Shown piece by piece: positions 26,730 to 38,469 of a stretch of 52,333 bases of DNA. The notes below the pieces were generated by a model. That model made no database searches. It was not told the DNA's origin and saw only the letters and a program-made list of their open reading frames with translations. This DNA comes from a virus. Numbering within the stretch: the stretch's first letter is position 1; the number at the start of each line of letters is the position of its first letter. The translations under genes were made by a program, and so were the position numbers. The stretch spans positions 1-52,333 of the IMG/VR virus record IMGVR_UViG_3300043446_000626, one strand, 5' to 3'.

Positions 26730-26782
26730 CTCAACCTTTCAGTGACCGCCTCTTTGGCGTGAAGACAGTGGACCACAACTCA

Positions 26783-26804
26783 AACATCGTGTCAACATTG
26801 TGTT
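26783..26804. promoter_or_regulatory. Tandem operator at the divergent early switch
   Basis: Two abutting 11-bp sites, AACATCGTGTC and AACATTGTGTT, one helical turn apart. Each is a near-palindrome AACA-N3-TGTT. They lie in the 103-bp gap between leftward and rightward operons, just upstream of a TATAAA at 26806-26811 that could be the -10 of the rightward transcript. A TTGACA on the minus strand overlaps the pair (26790-26795), without a good -10. The same dyad recurs before five other genes. Confidence 0.6.
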
Positions 26805-26832
26805 GTATAAAAAGTTCAAGTAGACTGGAAGG

Positions 26833-27036
26833 ATGAACCTCAAACAATACTTTGACGAAGAGCCGATCGGAGCGATCAAGGAGATGGCCGAGTACCTGGG
26901 GGTGACTCAGTCTTGGATGTCTCTTTTGATCCACGAGAAGCGCAAGTGCTCTGCAGCCCTGGCCAAGAGGATCGAGGAGGCCACACAAGGGCTTGTGACA
27001 CGCAGGGACTTGCGTCCGGACTTGTTTGGCGATTAA
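26833..27036 (+). CDS. YdaS/Cro-like helix-turn-helix regulator
   Basis: A 67-aa DNA-binding protein. The helix-turn-helix core is IKEMAEYLGVTQSWMSLLIHEKRK, quoted here in parts: AEYLGVTQ and SWMSLLIH. The ending TRRDLRPDLF is the signature of the YdaS/Cro family (usually LRPDLW/F). These proteins act as Cro-like repressors or antitoxins. It is the first rightward gene, behind GGAAGG, next to the tandem dyad. I infer that it regulates the AAC-N5-GTT sites. No second (CI-type) repressor or toxin partner is visible. Confidence 0.85.
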   Translation: MNLKQYFDEEPIGAIKEMAEYLGVTQSWMSLLIHEKRKCSAALAKRIEEATQGLVTRRDLRPDLFGD

Positions 27037-27182
27037 GATGCTCATCAGCGCCGTGGAAAGCGCATAAGGTGGGCTTGCAAGTCAGTGTCCTTGGGCGGAC
27101 GGCTTCAGGCCCGATCAAGACCCGCAATGGGTTGGCCCGCCTCGGAATTTCCACCCTGAGGCTGTCCACCCAAGGACAACTG
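27037..27182 (+). promoter_or_regulatory. Structured 146-bp leader of the replication gene, with paired GTCC-N6-GGAC dyads
   Basis: Two 14-bp dyads, GTCCTTGGGCGGAC (27087-27100) and GTCCACCCAAGGAC (27164-27177), are also reverse complements of each other except for one base. As RNA they could form two hairpins with complementary loops (UUGGG/CCCAA) or one long helix closing a 63-nt loop. The second dyad contains the AAGGA ribosome binding site of the gene at 27183, so folding would hide it. As DNA the pair could be protein-binding sites or part of an origin. Confidence 0.5.
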
Positions 27183-27935
27183 ATGCACTACTTTCAGTTC
27201 AACATCAAGGACTATCAGTCCCACACAGGTCATCTCGATGACCTTGAGGATCTGGCCTATCGCCGTCTCCTCGACTGGTGCTACCTCCACGAGCGTCCAT
27301 TGCCGGAAGATCCGGCTGAAGTGGCACGCCTGATCAGGATGCGTTCGCATAGCGATTGCATAGCGGCCGTTCTACGGGAGTTCTTCGTCCGTACAGATTC
27401 GGGATGGATCTCTGAACGAGTGCATCGTGAGTTAACCCGCATCAGCGCCAAGTCCAAGAAGGCTAGTGAGAGTGCCAAGGCTAGATGGAACAAGGGCTTA
27501 GATGCGAACGCATCCGAGTCGCATACCGAAGGCAATGCTACCCATAACCCATTACCCATAACCCAAGACCCAATACCCAGTACCCAAGACACAAAACCCA
27601 AGGTTAGAAATACACGCACATCGACTGTCGTCGAGTGCTTCGATGGTGTTGAACCCCAGGTCTGGGAAGACTGGTTGGCCATCAGGAAAGCCAAGAAGTT
27701 GCCGTTGACCAAGACCGCCATGGCTCAAGTTGAGGCCGAGGTTCTCAAGGCGGGCATCTCGATGCAGGAGGCTTTGAAGGAGTGCTGCCTTCGGGGGTGG
27801 GGTGGATTCAAGGCTAGTTGGCTGACCAGGGAAGGAGGCGTGACCCTGAACAAGCAGGAGGCCCTGGAGCGTCGGAACAAGGAAGTCGGCCTGCGTTGGC
27901 TGCAGAACCAAGGAGCGATGAATGAAAGCGAGTGA
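27183..27935 (+). CDS. DUF1376 (YdaU-like) replication protein
   Basis: A 250-aa protein. I use the ATG at 27183 (AAGGA 7 bases upstream); the longer ORF reads through the leader. The N-terminal 90 residues are a DUF1376 domain: YFQFNIKDYQSHTGHLDDLE, YRRLLDWCYLHERPLP, then SGWISERVHRELTR. A linker with repeated ITQDPIPSTQD-type wording, encoded by near-repeats at 27541-27600, leads to a C-terminal domain (WEDWLAIRKAKKLPLTKTA) common to phage replication-initiation proteins. Proteins of this kind act as phage initiators or helicase-loader partners. The next gene overlaps by 14 bp. Confidence 0.82.
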   Translation: MHYFQFNIKDYQSHTGHLDDLEDLAYRRLLDWCYLHERPLPEDPAEVARLIRMRSHSDCIAAVLREFFVRTDSGWISERVHRELTRISAKSKKASESAKARWNKGLDANASESHTEGNATHNPLPITQDPIPSTQDTKPKVRNTRTSTVVECFDGVEPQVWEDWLAIRKAKKLPLTKTAMAQVEAEVLKAGISMQEALKECCLRGWGGFKASWLTREGGVTLNKQEALERRNKEVGLRWLQNQGAMNESE

Positions 27936-28458
27936 CAAGCCCCAGTTCATGGAACTGATCACCGATGTCCTGGCCTTCTACAAGCAGGATGTCTCGGATT
28001 TCGCCATCACCGTCTGGTGGCAGGCTTCCCAAAACTTCGAGTTGGAGCAGGTCCGTAAGGCGTTGACGGCTCATGCCATGGACCCGGAGAAGGGCCAGTT
28101 CCCTCCAAAGCCTGCGGATCTGGTTCGGATGCTGCAGGGTACGCATACGGACAGGGCTCTTCTGGCCTGGAATAAGGCTTACAAGGCGATTTCTCAGGTC
28201 GGGGCATACCAGACCCTTGACCTGGGTGATCCGATCGCCCATGCGGCGATTCAAAGCCTCGGAGGATGGCCAAAGTTCTGCCAGTCTCAGGTTGACGAGT
28301 TGCCGTTTCTGCAGAAGCGGTTCTGCGACTTCTATCGCACCTACACGACCCGAGGGGTGGAGGACGCTCCTGCGCGACTGTCTGGGATTTCTGCCACCGA
28401 AAACGGGGCCCGCGGGTTCATTGAATCCAATGTTCAACCTTTGCTGCTGAGGAACTGA
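27922..28458 (+). CDS. DUF6475-like replication-associated protein
   Basis: A 178-aa protein in the usual place after the DUF1376 gene. Motifs match the DUF6475 pattern: VLAFYKQDVSDFAITVWWQA, KALTAHAMDPEKGQFPPKPAD, then ALLAWNKAYKAISQVGAY and SLGGWPKFC. The family is found beside YdaU-like initiators in phages of Betaproteobacteria and may help load host helicase; that role is inferred from context only. Confidence 0.78.
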   Translation: MKASDKPQFMELITDVLAFYKQDVSDFAITVWWQASQNFELEQVRKALTAHAMDPEKGQFPPKPADLVRMLQGTHTDRALLAWNKAYKAISQVGAYQTLDLGDPIAHAAIQSLGGWPKFCQSQVDELPFLQKRFCDFYRTYTTRGVEDAPARLSGISATENGARGFIESNVQPLLLRN

Positions 28459-28459
28459 G

Positions 28460-28810
28460 ATGGAAGACGTAATGCACCTGATGTGTGGCGCCAGGGGTTG
28501 CCCCAACCGTTGGAGCATAGACGCCGGAAACGGCCGCTTGTGCTCTAGGCACGCATGGAAACCCGCCAAGGACTGGCCATCCATCACCGAGGACATCAAG
28601 ACCGCTCCTGCCCAGACGATGTCTGCGGTTGAGTACAGGAAGGTCTCTGACGAGGAGAAGTTGGCCATCCTCCGCAAGGTCGAGGAGATGTTCTCTCACT
28701 CCAACCCCAAGCGATGGGCTCATGCCCTCAAGGAGCGGGAAGCCCGCGGGGAGCGGCTCACTCCGTACCAAAGGTCGGCCTGGAAGGAAGCCTTGGGGGT
28801 GAGGGAATGA
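28460..28810 (+). CDS. Zinc-finger-like small replication-module protein
   Basis: A 116-aa protein. The N-terminus has CGARGCPNRW and CSRHAW (Cys9, Cys14, Cys28, His31), a likely zinc site. The C-terminus is helical and basic (NPKRWAHALKEREARGERL). Its TGA overlaps the next ATG (ATGA). Small CxxxxC...CxxH proteins often follow the DUF1376/DUF6475 pair in phages. Function unknown. Confidence 0.68.
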   Translation: MEDVMHLMCGARGCPNRWSIDAGNGRLCSRHAWKPAKDWPSITEDIKTAPAQTMSAVEYRKVSDEEKLAILRKVEEMFSHSNPKRWAHALKEREARGERLTPYQRSAWKEALGVRE

Positions 28811-29028
28811 CCCGTGAAGAAGCCAAGAAAGTCCTCAACCAAACCCGTGAAGGGGTCGGAGCCTGGACTGGGGATCAGATTCGAGACGCTCTTACCGCCA
28901 CCGGAGATCTGGGAGCACATGAGGGATTGCGAAGCGAGGCACTGGTTGAAACGCTACCGGGAGATCGCCTGTACCTCGGGTGGAGCGCGGGCTCGACAGT
29001 GGTGGCAGCAAGTCTGCGCAGACATTGA
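28807..29028 (+). CDS. Small phage protein, overlaps next gene in another frame
   Basis: A 73-aa ORF whose ATG overlaps the upstream TGA. The first 35 residues (MTREEAKKVLNQTREGVGA, then IRDALTATGDL) match a small phage protein family that usually stops just after TGDL. The remaining 38 residues are low in recognisable content and coincide with the start of the gene in the other frame, so the natural stop may have been lost. A competing reading is a 96-aa ORF from a GTG at 28814; I prefer this one because of the coupling and the family-like N-terminus. Confidence 0.55.
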   Translation: MTREEAKKVLNQTREGVGAWTGDQIRDALTATGDLGAHEGLRSEALVETLPGDRLYLGWSAGSTVVAASLRRH

Positions 29029-29104
29029 GAAGCGCCGCGGGACTGAGTCCCTGGCGGATCTGAGACGAAGGATGAACGAGCAAAGAAAGGTAACTGAGAA
29101 ATGA
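28919..29104 (+). CDS. Small CEAR-motif protein (DUF7696-like)
   Basis: A 61-aa protein starting at an ATG behind GGGAGC, overlapping the previous gene by 110 bp in another frame. The sequence DCEARHWLKRY, WWQQVCADIEKRRG and LADLRRRM resembles a small family in proteobacterial phages with CEARYVL...VEKKRG; the family name is from memory. An upstream GTG at 28814 would add 35 poorly conserved-looking residues. Its stop overlaps the next ATG, and the start-linked AAAGGTAACTGA motif for the next gene lies inside its last codons. Confidence 0.5.
   Translation: MRDCEARHWLKRYREIACTSGGARARQWWQQVCADIEKRRGTESLADLRRRMNEQRKVTEK
29086..29100 (+). promoter_or_regulatory. Start-linked GGTAACTGA site
   Basis: AAAGGTAACTGA ends 3 bp before the ATG at 29101. 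It is the same start-linked sequence found before the genes at 30435, 32201, 33400, 33985, 34546 (partial) and 34914. It serves as the ribosome binding site (AAAGG) and here also encodes the end of the upstream protein. Confidence 0.65.
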
Positions 29105-29628
29105 GTCAATTTGAGATGTTCGACAACGAAGGGGCGTGGCTGAAGAAGTTGCGCGGGAACTGGCAAGAGACGATCAAGCGCGAGTCTGCCGTCTGTCCCT
29201 GCTGTGACAGGGTCGGCAGGATCAACAAGTACCGCCTGACCAAGCCTCTGGTCCTGGCCCTTCGTTGGATGATGGTTCACGGCGCCGGAGACGGATGGGT
29301 CAACGTCCAGTCCAAGGCTCCTCGTTGGATGCTGCGAAGCAAGTCCTACCCAAGCCTGGAGTATTGGGGCTTGGTGGAGAGCAAGTCCAGTAGGTCCGGC
29401 ATCTGGAGAGTCACTCCCAAAGGGGTTTCATTCATCACCGGCGGCATGATGGTTCCGTCCGCCGTGTACATCTATGACGCCAAGGTGATGGCCTGGGACG
29501 CGGAGGAGACATCTTTCCGCGGCTGCTTTGAACATTCATTCGACTTTGACGAGATGATGTCCTACAACTTCGACTGGGCATCCCTGGTCATTGAAACCCG
29601 CCACAAGTCCAAAAGGAGCAAAAAATGA
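29101..29628 (+). CDS. Winged-helix-like protein with CPCC zinc motif
   Basis: A 175-aa protein. AVCPCCDRVGRINKYRLTK (residues 30-48), followed by LVLALRWMM and later YWGLVESKSSRSGIWRVTPK, fits a phage family with a short Cys motif in front of a winged-helix-like DNA-binding domain (the SGIWRVTPKG wing). It lies between replication genes. DNA binding is inferred; no characterised homologue is recalled. Confidence 0.62.
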   Translation: MSQFEMFDNEGAWLKKLRGNWQETIKRESAVCPCCDRVGRINKYRLTKPLVLALRWMMVHGAGDGWVNVQSKAPRWMLRSKSYPSLEYWGLVESKSSRSGIWRVTPKGVSFITGGMMVPSAVYIYDAKVMAWDAEETSFRGCFEHSFDFDEMMSYNFDWASLVIETRHKSKRSKK

Positions 29629-29912
29629 CAGACCTGACCGACTTCCAGAAGAACTTCCTGCTTGCCCGAGGGGCGGGACAGACCCTCTACACCGAGAAGG
29701 AGTTCGAGGAGCGCCTAGCCCAAGCCAAGGCCGAAATCATGGCCGTGGCCATCCAAACCTCCAGGCAAGCCGTTCAGATTGAACGCCGAGCCTGCGCAGA
29801 ACTCGTTATGAGGCTCGCAAGCGAGGAGGATGAGGGTGAGGTATCAACCGCGCTAAAAAACGCCGCCATGGCCGTTTTAAGGCGGATTCCGGGGCAGTTT
29901 GATGAGGATTGA
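29625..29912 (+). CDS. Small helical early protein with ER-x-C-AEL helix
   Basis: A 95-aa protein starting at an overlapping ATGA. Helical and charged: EEFEERLAQAKAEIMAVAIQ and IERRACAELVMRLASEED. Such proteins are widespread in phage early regions without known function. The 3' end overlaps RusA by 11 bp. Confidence 0.62.
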   Translation: MTDLTDFQKNFLLARGAGQTLYTEKEFEERLAQAKAEIMAVAIQTSRQAVQIERRACAELVMRLASEEDEGEVSTALKNAAMAVLRRIPGQFDED

Positions 29913-30252
29913 ACTGGACTTCCCGCCCGCTGACCTGTTTCCGAACCGGGCAAAGGGCAGGCACTGGGCCTTCCTCCATGCTTCAAAGACTCAGTATCGG
30001 GAGAACTCCGCTTGGTTGGCAAAGCACCAGATCCGGGCCTGGAAGGCGCCGGAAGGGGACATCAAGTTGACCTTGACCTTTCAGATGCCGGACAAGCGGA
30101 TGCGGGATGCGGACAACTGTCTTGCTGCGGCCAAGGCTGCCTTGGATGGTCTGGCGGACGCCCTGCAGGTCAATGACCGAAACTTTCAGCCGATCGTGGT
30201 CTACCGGGCACTAGGGACGAAGCCTGGGAAATTGATCGTGGAATTGGAATGA
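29902..30252 (+). CDS. rusA: RusA-like Holliday junction resolvase
   Basis: A 116-aa protein from the ATG at 29902 (a TTG just before it is less likely). The RusA pattern is clear: an N-terminal beta strand, KGRHWAFLHASKTQYRE, then RMRDADNCLAAAKAALDGL with catalytic-type Asp69, Asp71 and Asp82, and VNDRNFQPI with Asp92. RusA resolves Holliday junctions made during recombination and replication. Length is normal. Its TGA overlaps the next small ORF. Confidence 0.9.
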   Translation: MRIELDFPPADLFPNRAKGRHWAFLHASKTQYRENSAWLAKHQIRAWKAPEGDIKLTLTFQMPDKRMRDADNCLAAAKAALDGLADALQVNDRNFQPIVVYRALGTKPGKLIVELE

Positions 30253-30362
30253 GATGGGAGAACGACGGTATGGAAGAAGTTGGGCAGGTACTGCTGATTC
30301 TTCTGCTGATCTTTGTCGTCCTGATCCCGGCATTCGTCATTTGGCTGCTGTTCAACAGATGA
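30249..30362 (+). CDS. 37-aa single-span membrane protein
   Basis: An ORF starting at the ATGA overlap with RusA. Nearly all of residues 12-35 is hydrophobic (VLLILLLIFVVLIPAFVIWL), ending LFNR, with an acidic N-terminus. Tiny single-span proteins like this are frequent in phage early operons. Function unknown. Confidence 0.6.
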   Translation: MRWENDGMEEVGQVLLILLLIFVVLIPAFVIWLLFNR

Positions 30363-30454
30363 AGTCCGTCCTTGATGCACTTTGTGCGTTGGCGTTTTTA
30401 CAGCAGTGGGATAGAGAGGTAACTGGAGAGAACTATGAGCGACAAGATCATTGA
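30359..30454 (+). CDS. Possible 31-aa leader-like ORF
   Basis: The ATG overlaps the upstream TGA (ATGA) and the ORF runs 20 bp into the next gene in a different frame (MKSVLDALCALAFLQQW...). The only support is the overlap geometry; it may be a small peptide or a coupling ORF. Confidence 0.3.
   Translation: MKSVLDALCALAFLQQWDREVTGENYERQDH
30415..30434 (+). promoter_or_regulatory. Start-linked GGTAACTGG site
   Basis: AGAGGTAACTGGAGAG precedes the ATG at 30435. It combines the recurring GGTAACTG element with a normal GGAGAG ribosome binding site. Confidence 0.55.
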
Positions 30455-30779
30455 CCCCAACGACGCGATCGACTTCATGATCGCCAACGCGAAGAAGTAC
30501 GCCCAGGCAAAGGCCAATAGGGTCTATGTCGAGGAGTACCGCAAGACCATGAAGGCCGAACTCTGCAAGGAGGCTCTCGCCGCAAAAATCGAGGCCGTCA
30601 ACGCCCAGGAGCGTGAGGCATACAGCCACCCCGAATACAAGCAGCATCTCCTGGCCATCAAAGCGGCCGTAGAGGAGGAGGAGCGCCTTCGGTGGCTCCT
30701 GGTGGCGGCACAAGCCAGGATCGATGTCTGGCGTTCCATGGAGGCATCCAACCGCATGATCGAGAAGGCCGCGATGTGA
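30435..30779 (+). CDS. Conserved phage early protein (helical, EREAYxHPEY motif)
   Basis: A 114-aa, almost wholly helical protein. VYVEEYRKTMKAELC, NAQEREAYSHPEYKQHLL and EEERLRWLLVAAQARIDVWR mark a family found in many phages near RusA or recombination genes. The role is unknown; charged helices suggest a complex with DNA-processing proteins. Its stop overlaps the GTG of the glycosyltransferase (GTGA). Confidence 0.75.
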   Translation: MSDKIIDPNDAIDFMIANAKKYAQAKANRVYVEEYRKTMKAELCKEALAAKIEAVNAQEREAYSHPEYKQHLLAIKAAVEEEERLRWLLVAAQARIDVWRSMEASNRMIEKAAM

Positions 30780-31840
30780 AGATCTGCGTGTACGCCATTG
30801 CGAAGGACGAGGAGCGTCATGTTGAGAGGTTTTGCAAGTCGGCCGCGGGTGCTGACTTGATCCTGATTGCGGATACGGGAAGTACAGACAGAACGATCGA
30901 ACTGGCCATCGAGGCCGGGGCGGATGTATGTTCCATCTCTGTCATTCCCTGGCGATACGACTTGGCCAGAAACCTTGCACTTGGGCTGATCCCTGGTGAT
31001 GTGGATGTCTGCGTCGCCATGGACATGGACGAGCACCTGTGCGAAGGATGGAGGCAGGAGATCGAAATCCTGTGGGAGCCTGGGACAACTCAGATGACCT
31101 ACCCTTTCACGGTTGGGGGAGGCACTTTCTGGAACAACAAGATCCACTGCCGTTTCGGATTCGTATGGGAGTGGCCCGTTCACGAGTGTCTGGTGCGGGA
31201 CACGAGGATTGAGGCCAAGGAAGTCCGTTGCGATAAGCCCTTGATCCTTCACGACCCAGTACATGAGGCGCCGTTAGACAAGCACTTTTCTATGCTTGAG
31301 TGGGCCTACAACCAATACCCTGAGTCCGGGCGGATGGCGTTTTACTACGCTAGAGACCTCATCAACCTCAACCGATACGACGAGGCCATCCCGGCCCTTC
31401 GCCGATACCTTGACCAGGACCGCCGCAAAAACGCCCCAGAGCGTGCATGGTGTATGCGGATGATGGGTAGGTGCCTGACAGAGCAAAAAAAGCCTACAGA
31501 GGCCCTTTCCTGGTTCCGCATGGCTGTCGATGAGACCCCCAAGGACCGAGACTCCTGGCTTGCCCTGGGCCATGCGTACTTCGGAATGTCTCAATGGGCA
31601 GAGTCCTACGGGGTTTTCAGGGCCGCAACTGCACTTCCAAAACCCGAAGACGGCTTCCATTCCGATCCAACCGTCACTGATGCCTCTGCCTGGGACTGGG
31701 CCGCCCTGGCTGCGTCAAGAGCCGGACTCACTGAAGAGGCGATCAACTGCTGCAGGCGTGCCCTAGAGATCACGCCCGAAGATCAACGTCTGAAGGACAA
31801 CCTGAAAGCATTCACAGATGACCACCATCGCAGAGCGTAA
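30776..31840 (+). CDS. Glycosyltransferase family 2-like protein with TPR tail
   Basis: A 354-aa protein from a GTG that overlaps the upstream stop. Residues 1-95 are a GT-A-type nucleotide-sugar fold: ICVYAIAKDEERHVERF, IADTGSTDRT and the metal-binding AMDMDEHL. Residues about 190-345 form TPR-like helices (YYARDLINLNRYDEAIPALRR begins the series, in parts YYARDLI and NRYDEAIPALRR; then EALSWFRMAV and LTEEAINCCRRAL). It resembles bacterial SunS/TPR glycosyltransferases. The target may be a host surface, a host protein or phage DNA; the early position makes virion decoration less obvious. Confidence 0.8.
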   Translation: MKICVYAIAKDEERHVERFCKSAAGADLILIADTGSTDRTIELAIEAGADVCSISVIPWRYDLARNLALGLIPGDVDVCVAMDMDEHLCEGWRQEIEILWEPGTTQMTYPFTVGGGTFWNNKIHCRFGFVWEWPVHECLVRDTRIEAKEVRCDKPLILHDPVHEAPLDKHFSMLEWAYNQYPESGRMAFYYARDLINLNRYDEAIPALRRYLDQDRRKNAPERAWCMRMMGRCLTEQKKPTEALSWFRMAVDETPKDRDSWLALGHAYFGMSQWAESYGVFRAATALPKPEDGFHSDPTVTDASAWDWAALAASRAGLTEEAINCCRRALEITPEDQRLKDNLKAFTDDHHRRA

Positions 31841-32111
31841 GTACATGGGAAAGGTGGCGGAACTCGGCTGCTCCGTCTGCAGGAGGATCGGCTATCCCGG
31901 CACGCCCGCGGAACTGCACCACCCTAGATCCGGTGTCGGCATGGCCAGGAGGGCAAGCCACTTCGATGTCATCCCCCTGTGCCCCGAGCACCACAGAGGC
32001 AAGAAAGGCGTCCACGGCCTGGGCACGAAGGGCTTCCCCAAGCACTGGGGCTTCACAGAGCAGGATCTCCTCGAAGACACGAAGAAACTTCTAAACCCGA
32101 CTGATCCATAG
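31818..32111 (+). CDS. Ref-like HNH nuclease (RecA-dependent nuclease family)
   Basis: A 97-aa protein that overlaps the glycosyltransferase by 23 bp. Cys18-x2-Cys21 (GCSVCRRIG), His34-His35 (ELHHPRSG), His48, then PLCPEHHRGKKGVHGLG with Cys55, His58, His59 and His66 match the catalytic part of P1 Ref, which cuts DNA in RecA-made displacement loops. It is much shorter than P1 Ref and has only the nuclease core. An HNH-type recombination nuclease fits beside RusA and the exonuclease. Confidence 0.8.
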   Translation: MTTIAERKYMGKVAELGCSVCRRIGYPGTPAELHHPRSGVGMARRASHFDVIPLCPEHHRGKKGVHGLGTKGFPKHWGFTEQDLLEDTKKLLNPTDP

Positions 32112-32135
32112 GGTTTATCAGTAGACCTGTGTTTG
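32112..32135 (+). other. Short gap before promoter module A
   Basis: No gene, terminator or repeat is apparent here; it leads into the operator/promoter module that follows. Confidence 0.4.
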
Positions 32136-32200
32136 AACACCATGTTAAAGTTCACACCACTGCAGCACGGTGTTGCAGGGTAAACGAAAGGTAACTGATC
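32136..32200 (+). promoter_or_regulatory. Early operator/promoter/start module A
   Basis: The order is: dyad AACACCATGTT (32136-32146), extended -10 TGTTAAAGT overlapping it, CACTGCA (32158-32164) 11 bp later, GCAGGGTAAA, then AAAGGTAACTGA (32187-32198) and the ATG at 32201. Modules B, C and D repeat this order with nearly constant spacing, so the similarity is not chance. Confidence 0.72.
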
Positions 32201-32494
32201 ATGGACGCAAACAACATCCCTCTCCTGTACGCTGACGAACTGGGCCTGCTCCTGGCGCAGATCGCCGAACTGACGGCCAAGGCTGAGTCAATCAAGAGCG
32301 CGATGAAGGATGTCGCCACCAACGGCGGCGGGTCGGTGTTCGAGGGCAACTACTTCAAGGCTTCGGTGATCGAGGCCAACCGCAAGGTCACGGACTGGAA
32401 GGCTATCGCCAAGGTCTGCAACATCCCCGAGGATGTGATCGTGGCCAACACCACCGTCACGGCCGTGTTCTCGGTCAAGACCACCACTCGCTGA
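32201..32494 (+). CDS. Conserved small phage protein (DWKAIAK motif)
   Basis: A 97-aa protein. A helical N-terminus (LGLLLAQIAELTAKAESIKS) is followed by GGGSVFEGNYFKASVIEANRK (in parts SVFEGNYFKA) and VTDWKAIAKVCNIP. The same layout is common in small phage proteins near SSB or recombination genes, where the middle reads EGxxFRATV...VDWK. Function unknown. It is the first gene after module A. Confidence 0.65.
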   Translation: MDANNIPLLYADELGLLLAQIAELTAKAESIKSAMKDVATNGGGSVFEGNYFKASVIEANRKVTDWKAIAKVCNIPEDVIVANTTVTAVFSVKTTTR

Positions 32495-32501
32495 TCAACC
32501 A

Positions 32502-32515
32502 GGGGCTTCGGCCCC
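32502..32515 (+). terminator. UUCG hairpin, weak terminator candidate
   Basis: GGGGC-UUCG-GCCCC between two early genes. No T run follows, so it is more likely an RNA-stability or pausing element than a full terminator. Confidence 0.4.
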
Positions 32516-32532
32516 CTCCTCAGGAGACAGCC

Positions 32533-33204
32533 TTGACACCCCTGATCCGAGAGTTCGTCGCCATGAATCCGGCGGGAGCGGTGGAGTACCACTGGTTCGA
32601 CATGACCGGCTCCTACCGCAAGGAGCAGGCCGTCATCAGCGAAATTCTGTCCAGGCCATTGCCATACCCCAAGACGGCATTGGTATGCGCCTATGAGGAC
32701 AAGAAGGCTTTCATGTTCATCTATCAGGCTGACGGGGTTACGGGAGTGGGCGCGTTTCAAATTGAGAACAACAAGTTGCGCGAGGTGACGCCGTTCTTCT
32801 TCACCGTTGATGACAAGGGTATCAAGGTAAAGCACAAGGACGGAACGCCATTCGACTACCGCACCAGTCCTGCGACGGGAGTTTTGGCCTTCATCGCGGC
32901 TTTCATGGAGTCCTTAGAGGTCACGCCTGCCACTGGGTATCAACCTATCAAGCGTGCCAACTGGGAGAAGAAAGTCCGCCAAGGGAAGGCGCCGACCTAT
33001 GACTGGAAGACCGTGGTCATTGAGCCGAGCAAGCCCAGGGGAGCCGATCAAGGTGGAACGCACGCAAGCCCAAGGTGGCATGAGCGCCGCGGGCACTGGC
33101 GCAACACGAAGTCCGGCAAGAAGGTTTGGGTTAAGAACTGCGAGGTGGGCAACAAGGCTCTCGGAGCAGTGTTTAAGGACTACAAAATCAAGGAGATAGT
33201 GTGA
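32533..33204 (+). CDS. Conserved phage protein with GHWRN...VWVK motif, TTG start
   Basis: A 223-aa protein. AGGAG lies 6 bases before a TTG at 32533, which I choose over an ATG at 32563 with no ribosome binding site. The C-terminal part (RRGHWRNTKSGKKVWVKNC, then GAVFKDYKI) is a conserved phage signature, sometimes at the end of unrelated proteins, and may bind DNA or metal. The N-terminal 150 residues are mixed alpha/beta with no known motif. Function unknown. Confidence 0.68.
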   Translation: MTPLIREFVAMNPAGAVEYHWFDMTGSYRKEQAVISEILSRPLPYPKTALVCAYEDKKAFMFIYQADGVTGVGAFQIENNKLREVTPFFFTVDDKGIKVKHKDGTPFDYRTSPATGVLAFIAAFMESLEVTPATGYQPIKRANWEKKVRQGKAPTYDWKTVVIEPSKPRGADQGGTHASPRWHERRGHWRNTKSGKKVWVKNCEVGNKALGAVFKDYKIKEIV

Positions 33205-33318
33205 ATGAAGACCGAAGAACGCATCGCCGCGGGCGTGTACCTGCTGATGTGGGTACTCGTTTACCTTTTCGCCATCTCGGTCCTGCTGATGGATCTCCTG
33301 GTCTGGAGACCAGGGTAA
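33205..33318 (+). CDS. 37-aa single-span membrane protein
   Basis: Starts directly after the preceding TGA. Residues 9-33 are hydrophobic (VYLLMWVLVYLFAISVLLM), with a charged N-terminus (MKTEER) and a short WRPG tail. Too short for family assignment. Confidence 0.55.
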   Translation: MKTEERIAAGVYLLMWVLVYLFAISVLLMDLLVWRPG

Positions 33319-33341
33319 GCACCTAGTTGACCCATCAATCT

Positions 33342-33399
33342 AACTTCGTGTTAAACTGGCAGCACTGCATGAGCAGGGTAACTGATCAAGGTAACTGAC
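33342..33399 (+). promoter_or_regulatory. Early operator/promoter/start module B
   Basis: Dyad AACTTCGTGTT (33342-33352); -10 TGTTAAACT; CACTGCA (33363-33369), 10 bp after the dyad; GCAGGGTAACTGA and a second AAGGTAACTGA before the ATG at 33400. A TTGACC at 33327-33332 could be the -35, with a long spacer. Confidence 0.75.
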
Positions 33400-33885
33400 A
33401 TGAACGCAATCAACCAAATCTTCTCCTCCCTCGAAGCACTCTTCGCAGAGCAGGACAAGCAGATCGCCGACCGTGACGTTGAGTGGGCTCTGGGCCGCGC
33501 CAAGGCCGTCATTGAGTACCGCAGCAGCCCCGAGTACGCCGAGACGCGCAAGTGTGGCGCTTACGCCGTGTACAACACCCTGTTCGCTATTGCCGGTGGC
33601 AAGACTTGGTACAACCTGTTCAACGGCAACAGCAGCGCCGCGATCGAAGAGTTCATGCGGAAGAACGCCAAGGCCGTGGCCGAGAAGCGTAACGCGAAGA
33701 TCGCTTCCAAGTTGGTTGAGGCCGGTGTGGAGCAGGTTAACAGCGCCAAGGTCGGCTACTGCCCGGATGGCTTCCGCGGCCACTTCGAGATCAACGGCGA
33801 CCGCCATGTCACTATCGAAGTGATCCTGGCAGGCGGCTACAACATCCAACGCCTGCATCAGCGGGTTCTGTGCAAGGTGAAGTGA
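33400..33885 (+). CDS. Uncharacterised early protein
   Basis: A 161-aa protein. The N-terminus is helical and acidic (INQIFSSLEALFAEQDKQIA), the middle mixed (YAVYNTLFAIAGGKTWYNLF), and the C-terminus beta-rich (GYCPDGFRGHFEI, HVTIEVILAGGYNIQR). No recognised domain. It has its own promoter module, which suggests strong or separately controlled expression. Confidence 0.6.
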   Translation: MNAINQIFSSLEALFAEQDKQIADRDVEWALGRAKAVIEYRSSPEYAETRKCGAYAVYNTLFAIAGGKTWYNLFNGNSSAAIEEFMRKNAKAVAEKRNAKIASKLVEAGVEQVNSAKVGYCPDGFRGHFEINGDRHVTIEVILAGGYNIQRLHQRVLCKVK

Positions 33886-33892
33886 GGGAGGG

Positions 33893-33909
33893 GTAGGGAA
33901 ACTCCCTAC
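33893..33909 (+). terminator. Hairpin between early genes, terminator candidate
   Basis: GTAGGGA-AAC-TCCCTAC, a perfect 7-bp stem right after the 161-aa gene and before module C. The T-rich part downstream (TTCCCTC) is weak. It probably separates adjoining transcripts. Confidence 0.5.
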
Positions 33910-33924
33910 TTCCCTCTACCCTTT

Positions 33925-33984
33925 AACTTGGTGTTAGAATGCAATCACTGCAACAGAGCAGGTAACTAAGAAAGGTAACTGACT
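33925..33984 (+). promoter_or_regulatory. Early operator/promoter/start module C
   Basis: Dyad AACTTGGTGTT (33925-33935); -10 TGTTAGAAT; CACTGCA (33946-33952), 10 bp later; GCAGGTAACTAAG, then AAAGGTAACTGA and the ATG at 33985. Confidence 0.75.
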
Positions 33985-34200
33985 ATGAACATCGACCAAC
34001 AACTGAATGCCCGCCAGTCCCGCCGCATGGCTTCTAACGACCGCTACCTTGCCCGCCTGGAGCGCCGCGAGGTTGCCGCCGAGCAAATGATCGGCGAACT
34101 GTCTAGCGGCAAGTGCTATGTGTGGCCCCAAGGCGGCAAGTACCGCGAAGGCACCCGCAGCGAGTTGGTGCAGTTCCTGATCCGCAACAACTACGCTTGA
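33985..34200 (+). CDS. Small basic early protein
   Basis: A 71-aa, Arg-rich protein: QSRRMASNDRYLARLERRE, then GELSSGKCYVWPQGGKY and RSELVQFLIRNNYA. A short strand-rich core with a basic helix could bind nucleic acid. No family recognised. Confidence 0.6.
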   Translation: MNIDQQLNARQSRRMASNDRYLARLERREVAAEQMIGELSSGKCYVWPQGGKYREGTRSELVQFLIRNNYA

Positions 34201-34212
34201 GGAGGGGAAGAA

Positions 34213-34467
34213 ATGCCGTTCATTCATGCTGTTGGCCGTGAGCACGGCATCAACGCCAAATCAGATGATGCGCTGTTTGATCTCTTGCAAGAGATGGGGA
34301 TAGGCCCCGCAAACTACTCTGCTACCACGATCGAGAGCGCTTTCCATGTTGCTTTTAGGCGAGGCATCTTGACCGCCGCTGAGGCTGATGCAGGGGCAGG
34401 CGAGTGCCTGAGCAAACGCAGGAAGCAACTGGCTAATCTTCGCAAGCAGGAAGATCAAAAGAAGTGA
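34213..34467 (+). CDS. Small early protein
   Basis: An 84-aa protein behind GAGGGGAAGAA. Helical (DDALFDLLQEMGIG, ESAFHVAFRRGILTAAEAD), with a basic C-terminus (SKRRKQLANLRKQEDQKK). No family recognised. Confidence 0.58.
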   Translation: MPFIHAVGREHGINAKSDDALFDLLQEMGIGPANYSATTIESAFHVAFRRGILTAAEADAGAGECLSKRRKQLANLRKQEDQKK

Positions 34468-34472
34468 TGGAG

Positions 34473-34491
34473 GGGGCTTGCGCCCCTTTCT
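34473..34491 (+). terminator. UUGC-loop terminator candidate
   Basis: GGGGC-TTGC-GCCCC followed by TTTCT, directly before promoter module D. The stem is short but GC-only and has a partial T run. Confidence 0.55.
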
Positions 34492-34545
34492 AACTTCGTA
34501 TTAAAATGCACTCACTGCACGACGCAGGGTAACTGGAGCAAGAAC
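34492..34545 (+). promoter_or_regulatory. Early operator/promoter/start module D
   Basis: Dyad AACTTCGTATT (34492-34502); -10 TATTAAAAT; CACTGCA (34513-34519), 10 bp later; GCAGGGTAACTGGAGCAAG before the ATG at 34546. This copy lacks the second GGTAACTGA. Confidence 0.72.
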
Positions 34546-34764
34546 ATGAAGCACGCAGCAGACTTCGAGACCACGGTGGCAGGCATCCCCTGCGGGATCG
34601 TGATCACTCACTACCTCATCGATCGCGCCGACGATGGAGACTTCGTGGAGCGAGACTGGTTCGTTGTGGACAGCAAGGGTTACCGGGCTGACTGGCTCAA
34701 TACCAAGATCACCGACAAGGAAGAGCGCCGTATCAACCGCGAGATCGATGAGGTGATGGCATGA
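34546..34764 (+). CDS. Small acidic early protein
   Basis: A 72-aa protein with a beta-rich core (FETTVAGIPCGIVITHYL, WFVVDSKGYRADW) and a helical acidic tail (KEERRINREIDEVMA). Its own promoter module lies in front. No family recognised. Stop overlaps the next ATG. Confidence 0.6.
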   Translation: MKHAADFETTVAGIPCGIVITHYLIDRADDGDFVERDWFVVDSKGYRADWLNTKITDKEERRINREIDEVMA

Positions 34765-34898
34765 CCCTCGAAGACCTGATCAGCCTGGAAGAGGCCATCG
34801 CTGAAGCCGAAGGGCTTCTATCTGCAGCAGAGTGGTATTGGATCCAGGAGACCGAGTCCGCACTGTCCCGCGAAGCCTACCCTTGGCTTTGCAGTTAA
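34761..34898 (+). CDS. 45-aa acidic protein
   Basis: An ATGA-coupled ORF, very acidic and Trp-rich: EDLISLEEAIAEAEGLL, EWYWIQETESALSRE, ending WLCS. Strong negative charge could suit a DNA-mimic or an inhibitor of a host protein, but nothing more specific is visible. Confidence 0.55.
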   Translation: MTLEDLISLEEAIAEAEGLLSAAEWYWIQETESALSREAYPWLCS

Positions 34899-34900
34899 AG

Positions 34901-34913
34901 AAAGGTGACTGAA
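34901..34913 (+). promoter_or_regulatory. Start-linked GGTGACTGA site
   Basis: AAAGGTGACTGA immediately precedes the ATG at 34914, a one-base variant of the recurrent element. It fixes the start there rather than at the in-frame GTG inside the element (34905). Confidence 0.6.
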
Positions 34914-35117
34914 ATGGAAATGAACGAGATCAACGACATCCTGATGGGCAAGATCGAAGGATCGCCCCAGGCGATCGACTACGCCCGCGGTGTGGGCAAG
35001 GCCACGGCCGTCATCTGGGGACTGCTGATAGGCATGGCCCCCGAGGACAGGAAGCGGATGGAGAACATCCTCCGCAGGAGCGCGCAGCCCGTTGAAAACA
35101 CAGCGGTTCAGCAGTAA
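34914..35117 (+). CDS. Small early protein
   Basis: A 67-aa protein: INDILMGKIEGSPQAIDYAR, then GKATAVIWGLLIGMAPEDRK and a basic-acidic end. One moderately hydrophobic stretch (AVIWGLLIGM) might contact membrane but is short. No family recognised. Confidence 0.58.
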   Translation: MEMNEINDILMGKIEGSPQAIDYARGVGKATAVIWGLLIGMAPEDRKRMENILRRSAQPVENTAVQQ

Positions 35118-35121
35118 AATC

Positions 35122-35139
35122 AGGGCTCTTCGGGGCCCT
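35122..35139 (+). terminator. UUCG hairpin before the exported peptide gene
   Basis: AGGGCTC-TTCG-GGGCCCT: a 7-bp stem with one U-G pair. No T run. It may slow transcription or protect the short mRNA of the following peptide. Confidence 0.4.
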
Positions 35140-35158
35140 CCACTACTAGGAGAAAACC

Positions 35159-35323
35159 ATGTTCAAGAAGATCGCCGCCGTCCTGGCTATTACCACATTC
35201 GCCACCGCGGCCTATGCCTCGTGCCGGTTTTATACGGTTACCGTCAATGGCAAGACCATCAGTTGCACCGAGTGCTGCTACGGAACGGGCGCCGCCCGCA
35301 CCTGCAACACCACTTGCAACTGA
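35159..35323 (+). CDS. Exported cysteine-rich peptide
   Basis: A 54-aa protein behind AGGAGAAAACC. MFKKIAAVLAITTFATAAYA is a textbook Sec signal peptide, with cleavage expected after the last Ala. The mature part is only about 34 residues and has six Cys (22, 36, 39, 40, 49, 53), fit for three disulfides in the periplasm. It closes the early block just before the terminase region and is flanked by hairpins at 35122 and 35330. A host-envelope target such as superinfection exclusion or an inhibitor is conceivable; no family is recognised. Confidence 0.7.
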   Translation: MFKKIAAVLAITTFATAAYASCRFYTVTVNGKTISCTECCYGTGAARTCNTTCN

Positions 35324-35579
35324 ACCCGCGGCCCCGAGAAGGGGCCAACACGCATGGGCATCAGGCAAATTCGGGCGGAGTGCAGACCGCGCCGATGAGC
35401 CGCCTGCACAAGGTGCCCAGTCGTGTTGGTGAATTCGCAGGCTGATGCGAGGTCATGCAGGCGCAGGCCGTGAGGGGTCGCCGCCCCCAGATGCAAGCCG
35501 GAGATCAGCACCGGCCACCAACTACCCAAATTCACAACCGCGAGTTAAACTCCCAGGCAAATGTCTCTGAAAGTACGAG
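35324..35579. other. 256-bp non-coding region before terS
   Basis: No convincing gene. A GGCCCC-gagaa-GGGGCC hairpin lies at 35330-35346 without a T run, followed by GC-rich sequence with short repeats (GCAGGCGCAGGCCG). A copy of the operator dyad sits at 35536-35546. Directly upstream of the terminase genes, it is a candidate place for the packaging start (pac/cos), which the sequence alone cannot prove. Confidence 0.5.
35536..35579 (+). promoter_or_regulatory. Dyad plus -10 upstream of the terminase genes
   Basis: AACCGCGAGTT (35536-35546) overlaps TTAAACT, as in modules A-D, but CACTGCA and the GGTAACTGA leader are absent. It could be the promoter for the late genes and would share a regulator with the early ones. 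The terS ATG follows at 35580. Confidence 0.5.
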
Positions 35580-36143
35580 ATGCCACGGAAAGCCGCCAAA
35601 ACCGAGCCTTCAAAAGCCCCTGACCAAGGGGTAGATACCACCCAGGCCGCGGAAAAGCCCAGAAAGAAGACTGGGCGCCCTACAGACTACGACGAAGAGA
35701 TCGCTTCCGCTATATGCGTCCGTATCGCCAACGGACAGCCTCTAAGGCAAATATGCATGGAAGAAGGGATGCCAGTCCAATCGACGGTGTATGTTTGGTT
35801 GACTCGCTTCCCTGAGTTCGCGGAGATGTACACACGCGCCCGCGAAGATCAGGCCGATACTCTGGCTGACGAGATTCAGGCCATCGCGGACGAAACCCCG
35901 GAGATGAACCCGATCGTGGACAAGAACGGGGAACTGATCCGGATCGAGATGCACTCGGCCTACATCCAATGGCAGAAGAACCGGATCGACGCCCGCAAGT
36001 GGGTTGCGGCCAAACTGAAGCCCCGCAAGTATGGGGACAAGGTCCAGTTGTCCGGGGACGCCGAGAACCCGCTGAAGGTGGAAGCCGATGTGACCATCTT
36101 CGATACCGTCCTGAAGGGCATAGAGCAGTCCCGCCGTGGATGA
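35580..36143 (+). CDS. terS: Terminase small subunit
   Basis: A 187-aa protein. A basic, low-complexity N-terminus is followed by GRPTDYDEEIASAICVRIA, then GQPLRQICMEEGMP and STVYVWLTRFPEFAEMYTRA, the helix-turn-helix and oligomerisation pattern of Sf6/phage-type small terminases. EIQAIADETPEMNPIVD and RKWVAAKLKPRKYGDKV complete the family signature. It recognises the packaging site and regulates TerL. It overlaps terL by 8 bp. Confidence 0.88.
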   Translation: MPRKAAKTEPSKAPDQGVDTTQAAEKPRKKTGRPTDYDEEIASAICVRIANGQPLRQICMEEGMPVQSTVYVWLTRFPEFAEMYTRAREDQADTLADEIQAIADETPEMNPIVDKNGELIRIEMHSAYIQWQKNRIDARKWVAAKLKPRKYGDKVQLSGDAENPLKVEADVTIFDTVLKGIEQSRRG

Positions 36144-38469
36144 ACTTGTCGCCGTCCTGAAGGACGAGGAGATCCGGGAGAAGTTCAAGCGCCTCCCGGC
36201 TGACAGACAAGCCGCCTTTGCCTGGAGGGCGGGATGGCTCACCAAGGCTCACAAGCACCAGATCCTGCCCGACGGGGACTGGTGGAGCATCTGGCTCCTC
36301 CTGGCCGGTCGTGGAGCCGGGAAGACCAGGACGGCTGCGGAGCAGATAGGTTGGTGGGCCTGGGAGCAGCCTGGAACCCGGTGGCTCGTTGCTGCTCCGA
36401 CCTCCGCGGACGTTCGGGCTACCTGTTTTGAGGGGGATTCTGGGCTGATTGCCGTGATCCCTCCTATTCTCATCGCCGACTACAACCGGGCGTACCACGA
36501 GATCAAACTCACCAACGGCTCACTTATTAAGGGCATCCCTGCGTCTGAGCCTGAGCGCTTTCGTGGTCCTCAATTCCACGGCGGGTGGCTAGATGAACTT
36601 GCGGCTTGGGACTATCTGCAAGAGGCTTGGGATCAGATCATGTTCGGCGTGCGCCTGGGCAAGCACACCCGCATTCTGGCCACGACGACTCCTAAGCCCA
36701 AGGACTTGATCATCGACCTCATCGGCCGGGATGGTGACGATGTACAGGTCACGACAGCGAGCACTTACTCCAACCTGGACAACCTTGCTCCGTCCTTTCA
36801 GAAGCAGATCCTGCAGTACGAGGGAACGAAACTCGGCCGCCAGGAGATCTACGCTGAGATCATTGATCCTGAGGAGGGGGGTATCGTCTCCCGTGACTGG
36901 TTCCGCCTCTGGCCTGCAGACAAGCCCATCCCTAAACTGGACTTCGTCGTCCAGTCCTACGACTGCGCCTTCACTGAGAAGGCCCAGAACGATCCGACGG
37001 CAGCCATCACCTTCGGGGTCTTCCGCCAGGAGGATGGCCCTGGAAGCGTCCTGATCATCGACTGTTGGCAGGACCGCCTGCAGTATCCCGACCTCCGGCC
37101 GAAGGTCATCGATGAGTACGAGACCGTCTTCGGAGAGGGCAAGGACAAGAAGCGGGTGGATCTGGTCCTGGTCGAGGACAAGGCCGCGGGCATTTCTCTG
37201 ATACAAGACCTGCAGAGAGCACACATCCCTGTCAGGGCCTACAACCCAGGCAGGGCGGACAAGGTCCAACGCCTGTCCATCGTGGCCAACATCATCCGAG
37301 CCGGAAGAGTCTGGGTGCCCGAGAGCAGCGTCAGGAAGGGCTACGTCCGTGACTGGGCGGAAGGGATGGTCTCTCAGGTCTGCTCCTTCCCCAACACCGA
37401 CCACGACGACTTCTGCGTGGCCGAGGGCTCGATGGTGCTGATGGCCAATGGCGATTTGAAACCGATTGAGTCTGTGCGGGTAGGCGACTTTGTCCAGACC
37501 CCTAACGGCGCTCGTCGCGTCACCGCCTTCCACGACAACGGCGTCAAGGAGGTTTGGCAAGTTCAGGCTGACGGTCGCCTGCTACTGGCAACCGGCAACC
37601 ACGAGGTCTTCACGGACAGTGGGTGGATGCGTGTTGATAGTTTGAGACAAGCAGTCCATAATCTTCTGATCATTGATCAGGAGGAAATATGCCGTTCCAA
37701 AAGAAGCCGGGGGTGGTCGTTGAGGTCATTGAGTTCAATGGCCGTAAGTACCGGCGCTATCCTGAAAGCCCAAATCCGGCGCATCGTCGGTACTTTGGTC
37801 GGGCAGGGCATCGGCTGCACCGGGATGTCTGGGAGTTCCATCACGGGCCGATTCCCGATGGGATGCACGTTCACCACATTGATGGCAACACCGCGAACAA
37901 CGACATCAGCAATCTTGAGTGCGTCACTCGTGATGCCCATTGGGACGAACATCGCGCAGAACATTCAAGGCGCGGGAAGGGCAAGGAACAGTTGGAGCAC
38001 TTGGAACATATCCGATCCAAGGCCTCTGAGTGGCACAAGTCAGAAGAAGGCCGAGCGTGGCATCGAGAGCACGCAAAGCGCAGTCTCTCCAAAGTATGGG
38101 GCAAGCCTCGGGAGTTTCCTGAACTCCGCCTTAAATGCGTTTGGTGCGGCGCGGACATGGTTGGCAAGATCGCTAGGAAGAAGTTCTGCGGACCAACCTG
38201 TCAAAACGCTGAGTCCAAGTTTCGCCTCGGCAAGTCTTGTACAGAACACCCATACCACGCGGCGCGTGTTCGACCTGACAGTGGAGGGTGAGCACTGCTA
38301 CTTTGCCAACGGCATCCTGGTCCACAACTGCGATGCCTTGTCTCAAGCGCTCCGATACTTGCGGGACGCAGGTTTCTTGAACATTGATCCAGAACCTGAC
38401 GATGGCCCTGACGAGGATGATTACGCCGACGCGGGGATGAGAAAGCGGGAGAATCCATATGCGTCTTGA
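36136..38469 (+). CDS. terL: Terminase large subunit interrupted by an intein
   Basis: The 777-aa reading frame is a 472-aa packaging ATPase/nuclease plus a 305-aa intein. Walker A is GRGAGKT (58-64), Walker B is GGWLDELAAW with Asp153-Glu154, and the nuclease part includes QSYDCAFTEK and LVLVEDKAAG. The intein (427-731) splits the conserved motif TDHDDF/CDALSQAL, which carries nuclease Asp residues, so unspliced protein should lack nuclease activity. Splicing residues are intact: Cys427 at the start, TGNH in block B, VHN at the end and Cys732 as the +1 residue. Residues 518-708 hold no recognisable domain because the same DNA encodes an HNH enzyme in another frame. Confidence 0.92.
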   Translation: MDELVAVLKDEEIREKFKRLPADRQAAFAWRAGWLTKAHKHQILPDGDWWSIWLLLAGRGAGKTRTAAEQIGWWAWEQPGTRWLVAAPTSADVRATCFEGDSGLIAVIPPILIADYNRAYHEIKLTNGSLIKGIPASEPERFRGPQFHGGWLDELAAWDYLQEAWDQIMFGVRLGKHTRILATTTPKPKDLIIDLIGRDGDDVQVTTASTYSNLDNLAPSFQKQILQYEGTKLGRQEIYAEIIDPEEGGIVSRDWFRLWPADKPIPKLDFVVQSYDCAFTEKAQNDPTAAITFGVFRQEDGPGSVLIIDCWQDRLQYPDLRPKVIDEYETVFGEGKDKKRVDLVLVEDKAAGISLIQDLQRAHIPVRAYNPGRADKVQRLSIVANIIRAGRVWVPESSVRKGYVRDWAEGMVSQVCSFPNTDHDDFCVAEGSMVLMANGDLKPIESVRVGDFVQTPNGARRVTAFHDNGVKEVWQVQADGRLLLATGNHEVFTDSGWMRVDSLRQAVHNLLIIDQEEICRSKRSRGWSLRSLSSMAVSTGAILKAQIRRIVGTLVGQGIGCTGMSGSSITGRFPMGCTFTTLMATPRTTTSAILSASLVMPIGTNIAQNIQGAGRARNSWSTWNISDPRPLSGTSQKKAERGIESTQSAVSPKYGASLGSFLNSALNAFGAARTWLARSLGRSSADQPVKTLSPSFASASLVQNTHTTRRVFDLTVEGEHCYFANGILVHNCDALSQALRYLRDAGFLNIDPEPDDGPDEDDYADAGMRKRENPYAS
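37414..38328 (+). mobile_element. TerL intein, mini-intein type in frame, with out-of-frame nested HNH gene
   Basis: The N-terminal splicing domain covers residues 427 to about 515 of the TerL frame (CVAEGSMVLMANGDLKPIE, RVGDFVQTPNG, LLLATGNHEVFTDSGW). The C-terminal block is RVFDLTVEGEHCYFANG-ILVHN (709-731). Between them the TerL frame shows only Ser/Thr/Arg/Ala/Gly-rich text without domain features, yet no stop codon in about 190 codons. The HNH gene at 37689-38291 fills exactly this interval. Remove it and a splicing domain of some 115-130 residues remains, about mini-intein size. Confidence 0.9.
37689..38291 (+). CDS. HNH homing endonuclease nested out of frame inside the TerL intein
   Basis: A 200-aa protein in the +2 frame relative to terL. 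CAGGAGGAAAT immediately before its ATG is the best ribosome binding site in this region. HNH_3-type core: YRRYPESPNPAHRRYFG, LHRDVWEFHHGPIPDG, then HVHHIDGNTANNDISNLEC (His62, His63, Asn71, Asn75). A zinc ribbon follows (KCVWCGAD, KKFCGPTCQNA: Cys150, Cys153, Cys167, Cys171). The last 20 residues overlap the intein C-terminal splicing block and look less conserved. It would cut intein-less terL and promote spread of the intein. Being separate from the intein chain in translation is highly unusual. Confidence 0.9.
   Translation: MPFQKKPGVVVEVIEFNGRKYRRYPESPNPAHRRYFGRAGHRLHRDVWEFHHGPIPDGMHVHHIDGNTANNDISNLECVTRDAHWDEHRAEHSRRGKGKEQLEHLEHIRSKASEWHKSEEGRAWHREHAKRSLSKVWGKPREFPELRLKCVWCGADMVGKIARKKFCGPTCQNAESKFRLGKSCTEHPYHAARVRPDSGG

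Follow-up and report, generated by a model that had tools for sequence, protein, structure and literature searches.

The window analysed here is the whole of the virus record IMGVR_UViG_3300043446_000626 (52333 bases), for which a gene map was built by hand from the list of open reading frames, some intervals being guessed. It carries a gene for a 67-amino-acid (aa) YdaS/Cro-like protein, a candidate repressor (26833..27036, + strand; PF15943, PHROG 35), and, further along, a series of promoters in which an inverted repeat covers the -10 box and a short hairpin follows at the predicted start of the RNA. A position matrix built on 87 rows from relatives, one or more of them the window's own, gave three strong matches in the window: 33339 (27.2 bits), 33922 (27.0 bits) and 34489 (24.2 bits, a site outside the training pattern), while the best matches of 20 shuffled genomes reached 15.6 bits. 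The first (33339..33357, + strand) was the dyad TCTAAC-TTCGT-GTTAAA with the extended -10 TGTTAAACT, its -10 at 33352-33357 and a -35, TTGACC, at 33327-33332 across a 19-bp spacer; this module was kept in relatives. The second (33922..33940, + strand) read TTTAAC-TTGGT-GTTAGA, with the extended -10 TGTTAGAAT, and the third (34489..34507, + strand) TCTAAC-TTCGT-ATTAAA, with the -10 TAAAAT, TA here replacing the TG of the extended -10. Directly upstream of this third site (about 34471-34489), a T run and a G+C-rich inverted repeat were found by eye. A divergent copy, TTGAACACCATGTTAAAGT, with the extended -10 TGTTAAAGT (32133..32151, + strand), scored 13.6 bits, within the shuffle range; it is followed by a hairpin, and similar sites before hairpins were present in relatives (loci L034, L081, L124 and L244; further diverged in L119).

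The predicted 5' hairpins behind the three strong dyads shared the stem CTGC/GCAG with different loops: CTGC-ATGA-GCAG (33365..33376, + strand; -5.1 kcal/mol; position and covariation seen in relatives), CTGC-AACAGA-GCAG (33948..33961, + strand; -5.3 kcal/mol) and CTGC-ACGAC-GCAG (34515..34527, + strand; -5.0 kcal/mol), on leaders running to the ATG at 33400, 33985 and 34546, respectively. Behind the divergent copy the hairpin was CTGCAGCA-CGG-TGTTGCAG (32160..32178, + strand; -10.6 kcal/mol), an 8-bp stem with one G-U pair that was G-C in L081 and L124 and A-U in L119. A fifth hairpin, CGCC-AAAGA-GGCG (26747..26759, - strand; -6.5 kcal/mol), lay at the predicted start of the leftward early transcript; the leftward early transcripts of relatives had a hairpin at the same place with other stems, in clade A CGGTC/GACCG, CGTTC/GAACG or CGATC/GATCG. 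If the -10 ends at -7, as is usual, the stems would start at about +2 with an A before them (the A at 33364 being the predicted +1 of the 33365 hairpin), and are thus probably within one or two nucleotides (nt) of the 5' end of the RNA. G or GG usually came directly after the stem.

In aligned relatives, the unit consisted of a 17-bp dyad, TYTAAY-N5-RTTARA, within which lies the extended -10 TG-T-TARAMT. TTGAC was frequently present across a spacer of 19 bp, an unusual length; among 136 non-redundant hairpin units, 55 had TTG at this distance, and no other spacer from 14 to 21 accounted for more than 11. The IMG/VR scan that gave the first set of relatives asked for the extended -10 and then CACTGCA and GCAGG (101 stretches, 80 of them listed); the left half of the dyad was absent from this pattern, yet T-Y-T-A-A appeared in most of 95 rows. 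Two further scans used patterns of the promoter alone, one of them giving at least the number of matches listed; the same promoter often preceded other stems at the same position (CCGC/GCGG, CGGTC/GACCG, CCAC/GTGG, CTGAC/GTCAG), and many matches, without hairpin or start codon by eye, were probably chance. A second set of loci, selected by the YdaS protein alone (138 loci, approximately 2.1 Mb), contained the dyad promoter 133 times vs. once for the reversed pattern. All 133 passed a test for ribosome-binding site and start codon, which says little because 73% of random places pass this permissive test. The pattern TNWAAYNNNRTGTTANANT gave 23 matches vs. none for its reversed control in one set of 15 records (9 with a match) and 47 vs. 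none in a set of 15 cassette-bearing records (12 with a match), G003, G004, G005, G010 and G012 belonging to both sets. The unit of promoter, dyad and hairpin is almost certainly real.

It might be argued that the repeated string is a promoter consensus only, read by host polymerase through an extended -10 and holding no operator, given that the right half coincides with TG-T-TARAMT and that a site before terS, described below, keeps a -10 without the dyad. The left half, however, is found 8-13 nt upstream of the -10, and sigma-70 is not known to make sequence-specific contacts there. Its unselected T-TAA was better conserved than the TTG of the -35 (1.4-1.6 vs. 0.6-1.0 bits). The two halves mirror each other and covary, and the left one changes from clade to clade at many promoters in parallel. 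The outer positions -9 and +5 covaried between C-G and T-A (odds ratio 14.6, p = 1.7e-6, descent ignored; 78 C-G, 5 C-A, 15 T-G and 14 T-A, with 38 of 150 sites left out for having other bases). A promoter without operator is therefore improbable on these grounds, and the dyad is very probably a protein site. MerR-type activation, hinted at by the 19-bp spacer, was rejected, because, as read from the sequence, the centre of the dyad is 5 bp off the centre of the spacer and the dyad covers the -10.

The hairpin was recovered from sites picked blind to it: a 4-bp stem starting 7 or 8 nt after the -10 was present at 95 of 174 non-redundant sites, vs. 4.1 expected from shuffled leaders, and at any other offset from 0 to 24 in 7 sites at most. 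As the hairpin was part of the pattern by which 101 of the loci were fetched, a fair count leaves out these loci and the window (67 of 142 vs. 3.8 expected) or uses the loci selected by YdaS alone (55 of 102 non-redundant dyad promoters vs. 3.0 expected, 40 of the 55 stems not being CTGC). Among 34 chosen leaders, the second pair of the stem was T-A, G-C, C-G or A-T and the third was of six kinds. In an alignment of 32 rows selected for the stem (27 of the 34 leaders and five from the window), 96% of cells were paired, with 36 two-sided changes vs. 13.8 in shuffles; slid structures paired in 28-46%. Seven leaders were left out of this alignment, two of which looked like chance (L260, L350) while the others resembled rows that were kept, and MAFFT misaligned three of its rows (window 32160, window 26741 and L388). 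The loop length varies, and the hairpin was for this reason rejected as a DNA operator. No Rfam family matched the window at gathering score.

A stem that begins at about +2 leaves one unpaired nucleotide, and would most likely shield the 5' end from the pyrophosphohydrolase RppH and from RNase E, prolonging the life of short early mRNAs. Both enzymes rely on single-stranded 5' ends, and 5'-terminal stem-loops that hinder them stabilise mRNA (PMC3997798). The difference is that the stems described here, as read from the sequence, form a family of exchangeable stems across the promoters of a phage. Protection of the 5' end has, in our estimate, an even chance of being their function. Other roles were considered: put-like antitermination, control of translation or by a small RNA, or binding by a phage RNA-binding protein. 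The put RNA of HK022 is a precedent for structure in a phage early leader (PMC9378689), and the G or GG after the stem would be compatible with such a role; the stem, by contrast, is free to vary in sequence but keeps its place at about +2, a pattern that suits shielding of the 5' end better than sequence-specific recognition. One of these other roles is possible, though rather less probable than not.

The same unit precedes different reading frames, as would be expected if it were a mobile promoter cassette that recombination carries from one small-gene slot to another, in the manner of the PeSL elements of T4-like phages, regulation being secondary. The stem-loop of PeSL is reportedly a terminator, whereas the conserved stem here is at the start of a new transcript; the upstream 60 nt, scored for folding, reached -12 kcal/mol or below in 36% of 136 cases. 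These 60 nt were more foldable than shuffled sequence (mean -10.7 vs. -8.2), but equally so at promoters without a hairpin (-9.9 vs. -7.7), and no exchange event was traced. PeSLs resemble the present unit in that a genome carries repeated pairs of early promoter and stem-loop (Arbiol 2010 and Comeau 2014, as cited in PMC4503421). A cassette of this kind would be compatible with the other readings, and as the principal explanation it seems unlikely.

The candidate binder of the dyad is a member of the YdaS/Cro helix-turn-helix family: it matched PF15943 (E 2.6e-12; 46.8 bits over a cut-off of 30) and PHROG 35 (phrog_35, transcriptional repressor), was 34.9% identical to the annotated Cro of SfV (about 35% for Cro of enterobacterial phages), and matched the PDB entries 8c7k, 8co2 and 3bd1, all named Cro. 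Two divergent promoters were predicted at its gene. The leftward early promoter (26767..26795, - strand) had a -35 TTGACA (26790-26795), a 17-bp spacer and a -10 TCCACT (26767-26772), TTGAC and TCYACT being retained in L117-L121, L124 and L125; the ydaS promoter (26798..26826, + strand; read from the sequence and from L117-L125) had a -35 TTGTGT (26798-26803) and a -10 TAGACT (26821-26826). The latter -10 is so near the ATG at 26833 that little or no leader would be left, and the ydaS mRNA may therefore be leaderless.

A preliminary description of this DNA had proposed a genome-wide AAC-N5-GTT dyad at seven intergenic places, as an operator family for one repressor. All seven strings were present, though two of them did not fit the motif (26783 ends in GTC and 34492 in ATT). 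Literal AAC-N5-GTT occurred 25 times in the window vs. 9.7 in shuffles (standard deviation 3.25); on the hand-made gene map, 20 of the 25 matches were within genes, and five lay in the 3.5% of the DNA that is intergenic (p = 0.0016). The string is enriched locally, but in its literal form it describes the sites poorly, and it was replaced by TYTAAY-N5-RTTARA as the defining motif. "Genome-wide" also proved too broad, the well-supported copies being confined to 32133-34507, while the reported overlap with a -10-like TAnnnT was correct at 32136, 33342, 33925, 34492 and 35536.

The two outermost places in that proposal are quite likely not members of the set. The tandem dyads over 26783..26804 (+ strand) are mostly two back-to-back -35 boxes, which relatives keep as GTCAACATTGT; the first copy was lost in L121 and L124, and the matrix score there (26780, 12.7 bits) was at the shuffle level. 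Before terS (35536), a -10-like TAAACT (35546..35551, + strand) was found with no conserved left half; 35533 was outside the 12 best matrix matches of its strand, and L081, L132 and L135 keep GTTAAACT or GTAAACTT without AAC, so that this place was rejected as a dyad, as was the tandem as the same operator. In favour of membership, AACATTGTGTT was kept in L117-L120 and L124, and chance would place a weak site in a region this short less readily than somewhere in the whole genome. The preliminary description had thus caught part of a real conserved system and the right kind of one, an operator family; the recurrent dyad over the -10, its presence in the ydaS control region of a sister clade and the left halves that differ by clade are what such a family would look like. 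It overlooked the RNA hairpin, its consensus was corrected, and its outer sites (26783, 26794 and 35536) are not supported.

The evidence for YdaS as the protein that binds the dyad came from relatives. A large sister clade also has the dyad at its Cro-like ydaS gene, and phages of clades A, C and F have it at the ydaS switch, with candidate operators over the divergent promoters. A switch site and a distal site were both found in 38 of 59 loci chosen by YdaS, and the commonest base at -9 agreed between them in 38 of 38 (36 C and 2 T, some loci being near-identical). In an operator-blind search of 214 loci with YdaS, the distal sites of clade A read TCTAA in 59 of the 62 that had an accepted left half (101 in all) and those of clade C TTTAA in 38 of 38 (45 in all); the switch-left sites gave TC in 18 of 20 (40 in all) vs. 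TT in 10 of 10, and the reversed control gave none in 214 leaders. The other 20 of the 40 switch-left candidates of clade A had no left half in register, 14 of them beginning with ATTAG or TTAGA, and the 54 distal candidates of unclassified YdaS types had mixed left halves, with 21 accepted. In clade D (L128-L136, L395, L396), the ydaS region had TTGAA-N7-TTCAA, and one distal hairpin unit with TTGAATTTTGTGTTC (L132, 16652) among eight loci scanned is only a hint of the same agreement; in a later count, not one of six distal candidates had a left half that was both accepted and in register. A half-site that shifts by clade at the switch and at distal sites points to one trans-acting factor, most likely YdaS, which probably represses the set. 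YdaS was found in 13 of 15 long cassette-bearing records; 9 of these were already known to carry it, so that the independent part of the test is 4 of 6, the two records without YdaS being 45 and 37 kb and perhaps partial. All 15 records of the other set carried YdaS, most of them having been chosen by it.

The dyad could instead be the site of another factor, a host repressor or a different phage protein. A further HTH_3 protein in G005 and G007 (none other than YdaS in the remaining 13 of 15 records) would allow for this, as would the lack of a clear copy at ydaS in the window's clade. The dyads at the ydaS switch of clades A, C and F argue against it, and so does the binding of the E. coli YdaS to the two promoters of its switch, of which it represses PRM more strongly than the other (PMC8630535). 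Another factor is unlikely, and YdaS is the rather probable binder; for the 67-aa protein of the window the assignment is an analogy with relatives, because its own ydaS promoter has no clear dyad.

Read together, the sites at 32133-34507 would each be one copy of an early-promoter unit that occurs dispersed in the genomes of a large phage group. We infer that transcription most likely starts just before the stem and that the dyad, which covers the -10 and the upstream spacer, is most likely bound as an operator by the phage's own Cro-like YdaS; as YdaS accumulated, a dimer on the dyad would block polymerase and shut early transcription off, and one small repressor would switch the set off together, with the hairpin most likely protecting the 5' ends of the RNAs. 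As a whole, this reading has slightly better than an even chance of being right. A broader version is possible though doubtful: that in a phage group in which no integrase or CI-like repressor was found, the dispersed early genes form one regulon under a single Cro-like protein, and many early RNAs, those of the leftward operon included, carry an exchangeable hairpin at +2 as a structural cap.

Several observations weigh against the combined reading. The ydaS region of the window's clade had no clear dyad (26780 being at the shuffle level and lost in L121 and L124), and the distal left halves of this clade were mixed (TCTAA 4, TTTGA 4, TTTAA 3 and TTGAA 2 among 19). Switch and distal sites disagreed in some records: G015 had TTTAA at the switch and TCTAA at its single distal site, G022 had TGTAA at two of three distal sites, and L007/L126 had TTCAA in the distal units and TTGAA-N6-TTCAA in the ydaS region. 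The dyad promoter was found in only 54 of the 138 loci chosen by YdaS, and the strict pattern was missing from 6 of the 15 records of one set and 3 of the 15 cassette-bearing ones. About half of the dyad promoters lacked the hairpin (47 of 102, some ydaS promoters included), the stems are short (4 bp, about -5 kcal/mol), and two of five covariation measures were not above shuffles (pairs with a two-sided change, 3 vs. 3.0; further pair types, 6 vs. 6.9). The dyad and hairpin counts ignore descent and include near-identical contigs, and the search for regulators covered the HTH_3, S24, integrase and YdaS families, so that others may have been missed.

Among known systems, the lambdoid Cro/YdaS switch of CP-933P in E. 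coli O157:H7 is alike in having a YdaS-type protein at a divergent switch, with YdaS binding that overlaps both promoters and a further, more distant promoter that is also regulated (PMC8630535). Unlike CP-933P, the candidate sites here are spread over many small transcription units, and neither an integrase nor an S24-type repressor, as expected of a temperate lambdoid phage, was found in any of 15 records, which may be incomplete. The half-site also differs from the GTTTAGTAA repeat of that paper (PMC8630535). The stoperators of mycobacteriophages are likewise many dispersed sites for one phage repressor (PMC9283540, PMC6550527); they are asymmetric and also stop elongation, whereas the dyads here lie over promoter -10 boxes, and the restriction of strong window sites to three promoters weighs against a stoperator system. 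The SAS/ESAS repeats of cluster K mycobacteriophages precede many gene starts, about half of them with 17-bp inverted repeats, and their function is given as unknown there (PMC3203893). In contrast to these, a -10 can be recognised within the inverted repeat here, and an RNA hairpin at the predicted start forms the second element; the SAS consensus GGGATAGGAGCCC had one match with up to two mismatches in the window vs. 1.45 expected. In the portions of the literature available, no description was recognised as a unit of dyad promoter and 5' hairpin.

A nucleotide search of phages with the window gave no match. The only INPHARED record with a YdaS of the clade A type was MW202545.1, a complete circular genome from Manatee Spring with five dyad sites, four of them with hairpins. 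Nine stretches were obtained from GTDB genomes, two of them with the dyad: L198, which comes from a metagenome-assembled genome (MAG) of Betaproteobacteria and has a gene for a relative of the small terminase, and L199, from a Rubrivivax MAG; the other seven had no dyad and look like chance. From these two, the hosts are probably Betaproteobacteria. Two Rfam families were present in relatives: the Betaproteobacteria-1 RNA (RF02932; L357, 13635-13752, and L342, 13893-14010), which fits a betaproteobacterial host, and the int-alpA RNA (RF02996; L346, 16343-16410). A motif read by eye thus becomes a testable regulon, in about a hundred stretches of uncultured phages from one scan and in the complete public genome MW202545.1. 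If the proposal is true, one Cro-like protein would serve many scattered promoters, early mRNAs would carry a standard hairpin at the 5' end, and the unit would be a marker for early genes in uncultured phages, probably of Betaproteobacteria.

A second candidate structured RNA was noticed in ydaS leaders of relatives (L341, 9893-10000; L346, L357, L369, L372, L381 and L259) and in L450-L529, with the layout P1 - GAAAGCGGAUGCU - variable stem - AG-ACGCAGCGAGUA or AG-UGCAGCGAGUA - P1'. Its pattern was present in at least 120 IMG/VR stretches and absent from the window; among 77 distinct copies, 74 had a P1 of 3 bp or more (taken from the best of six registers, so somewhat flattered), with many different stems, and the variable part looked tRNA-like by eye in places (L458, L485). 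Rfam gave no match at gathering score in 10 loci, nor at E up to 1 in L341.

In the window, GGTAACTGA occurred exactly five times (29089, 32190, 33377, 33390 and 33974), four of these within about 12 nt of a start codon, and with one mismatch at 30418, 33961, 34528 and 34904 (15 with up to one mismatch vs. 7.6 expected); it is possibly a leader or ribosome-binding consensus of the window's clade. Among the coding regions, a RecA-dependent nuclease domain (PF16786) was found at 31818-32111, a PcfJ-like domain (PF14284) in a 1242-aa protein (38687-42415), and an intein-like insert at about residues 427-731 of the large terminase (36136-38469), where Pfam Intein_splicing scored 33.3 bits, slightly short of its cut-off of 35.8.

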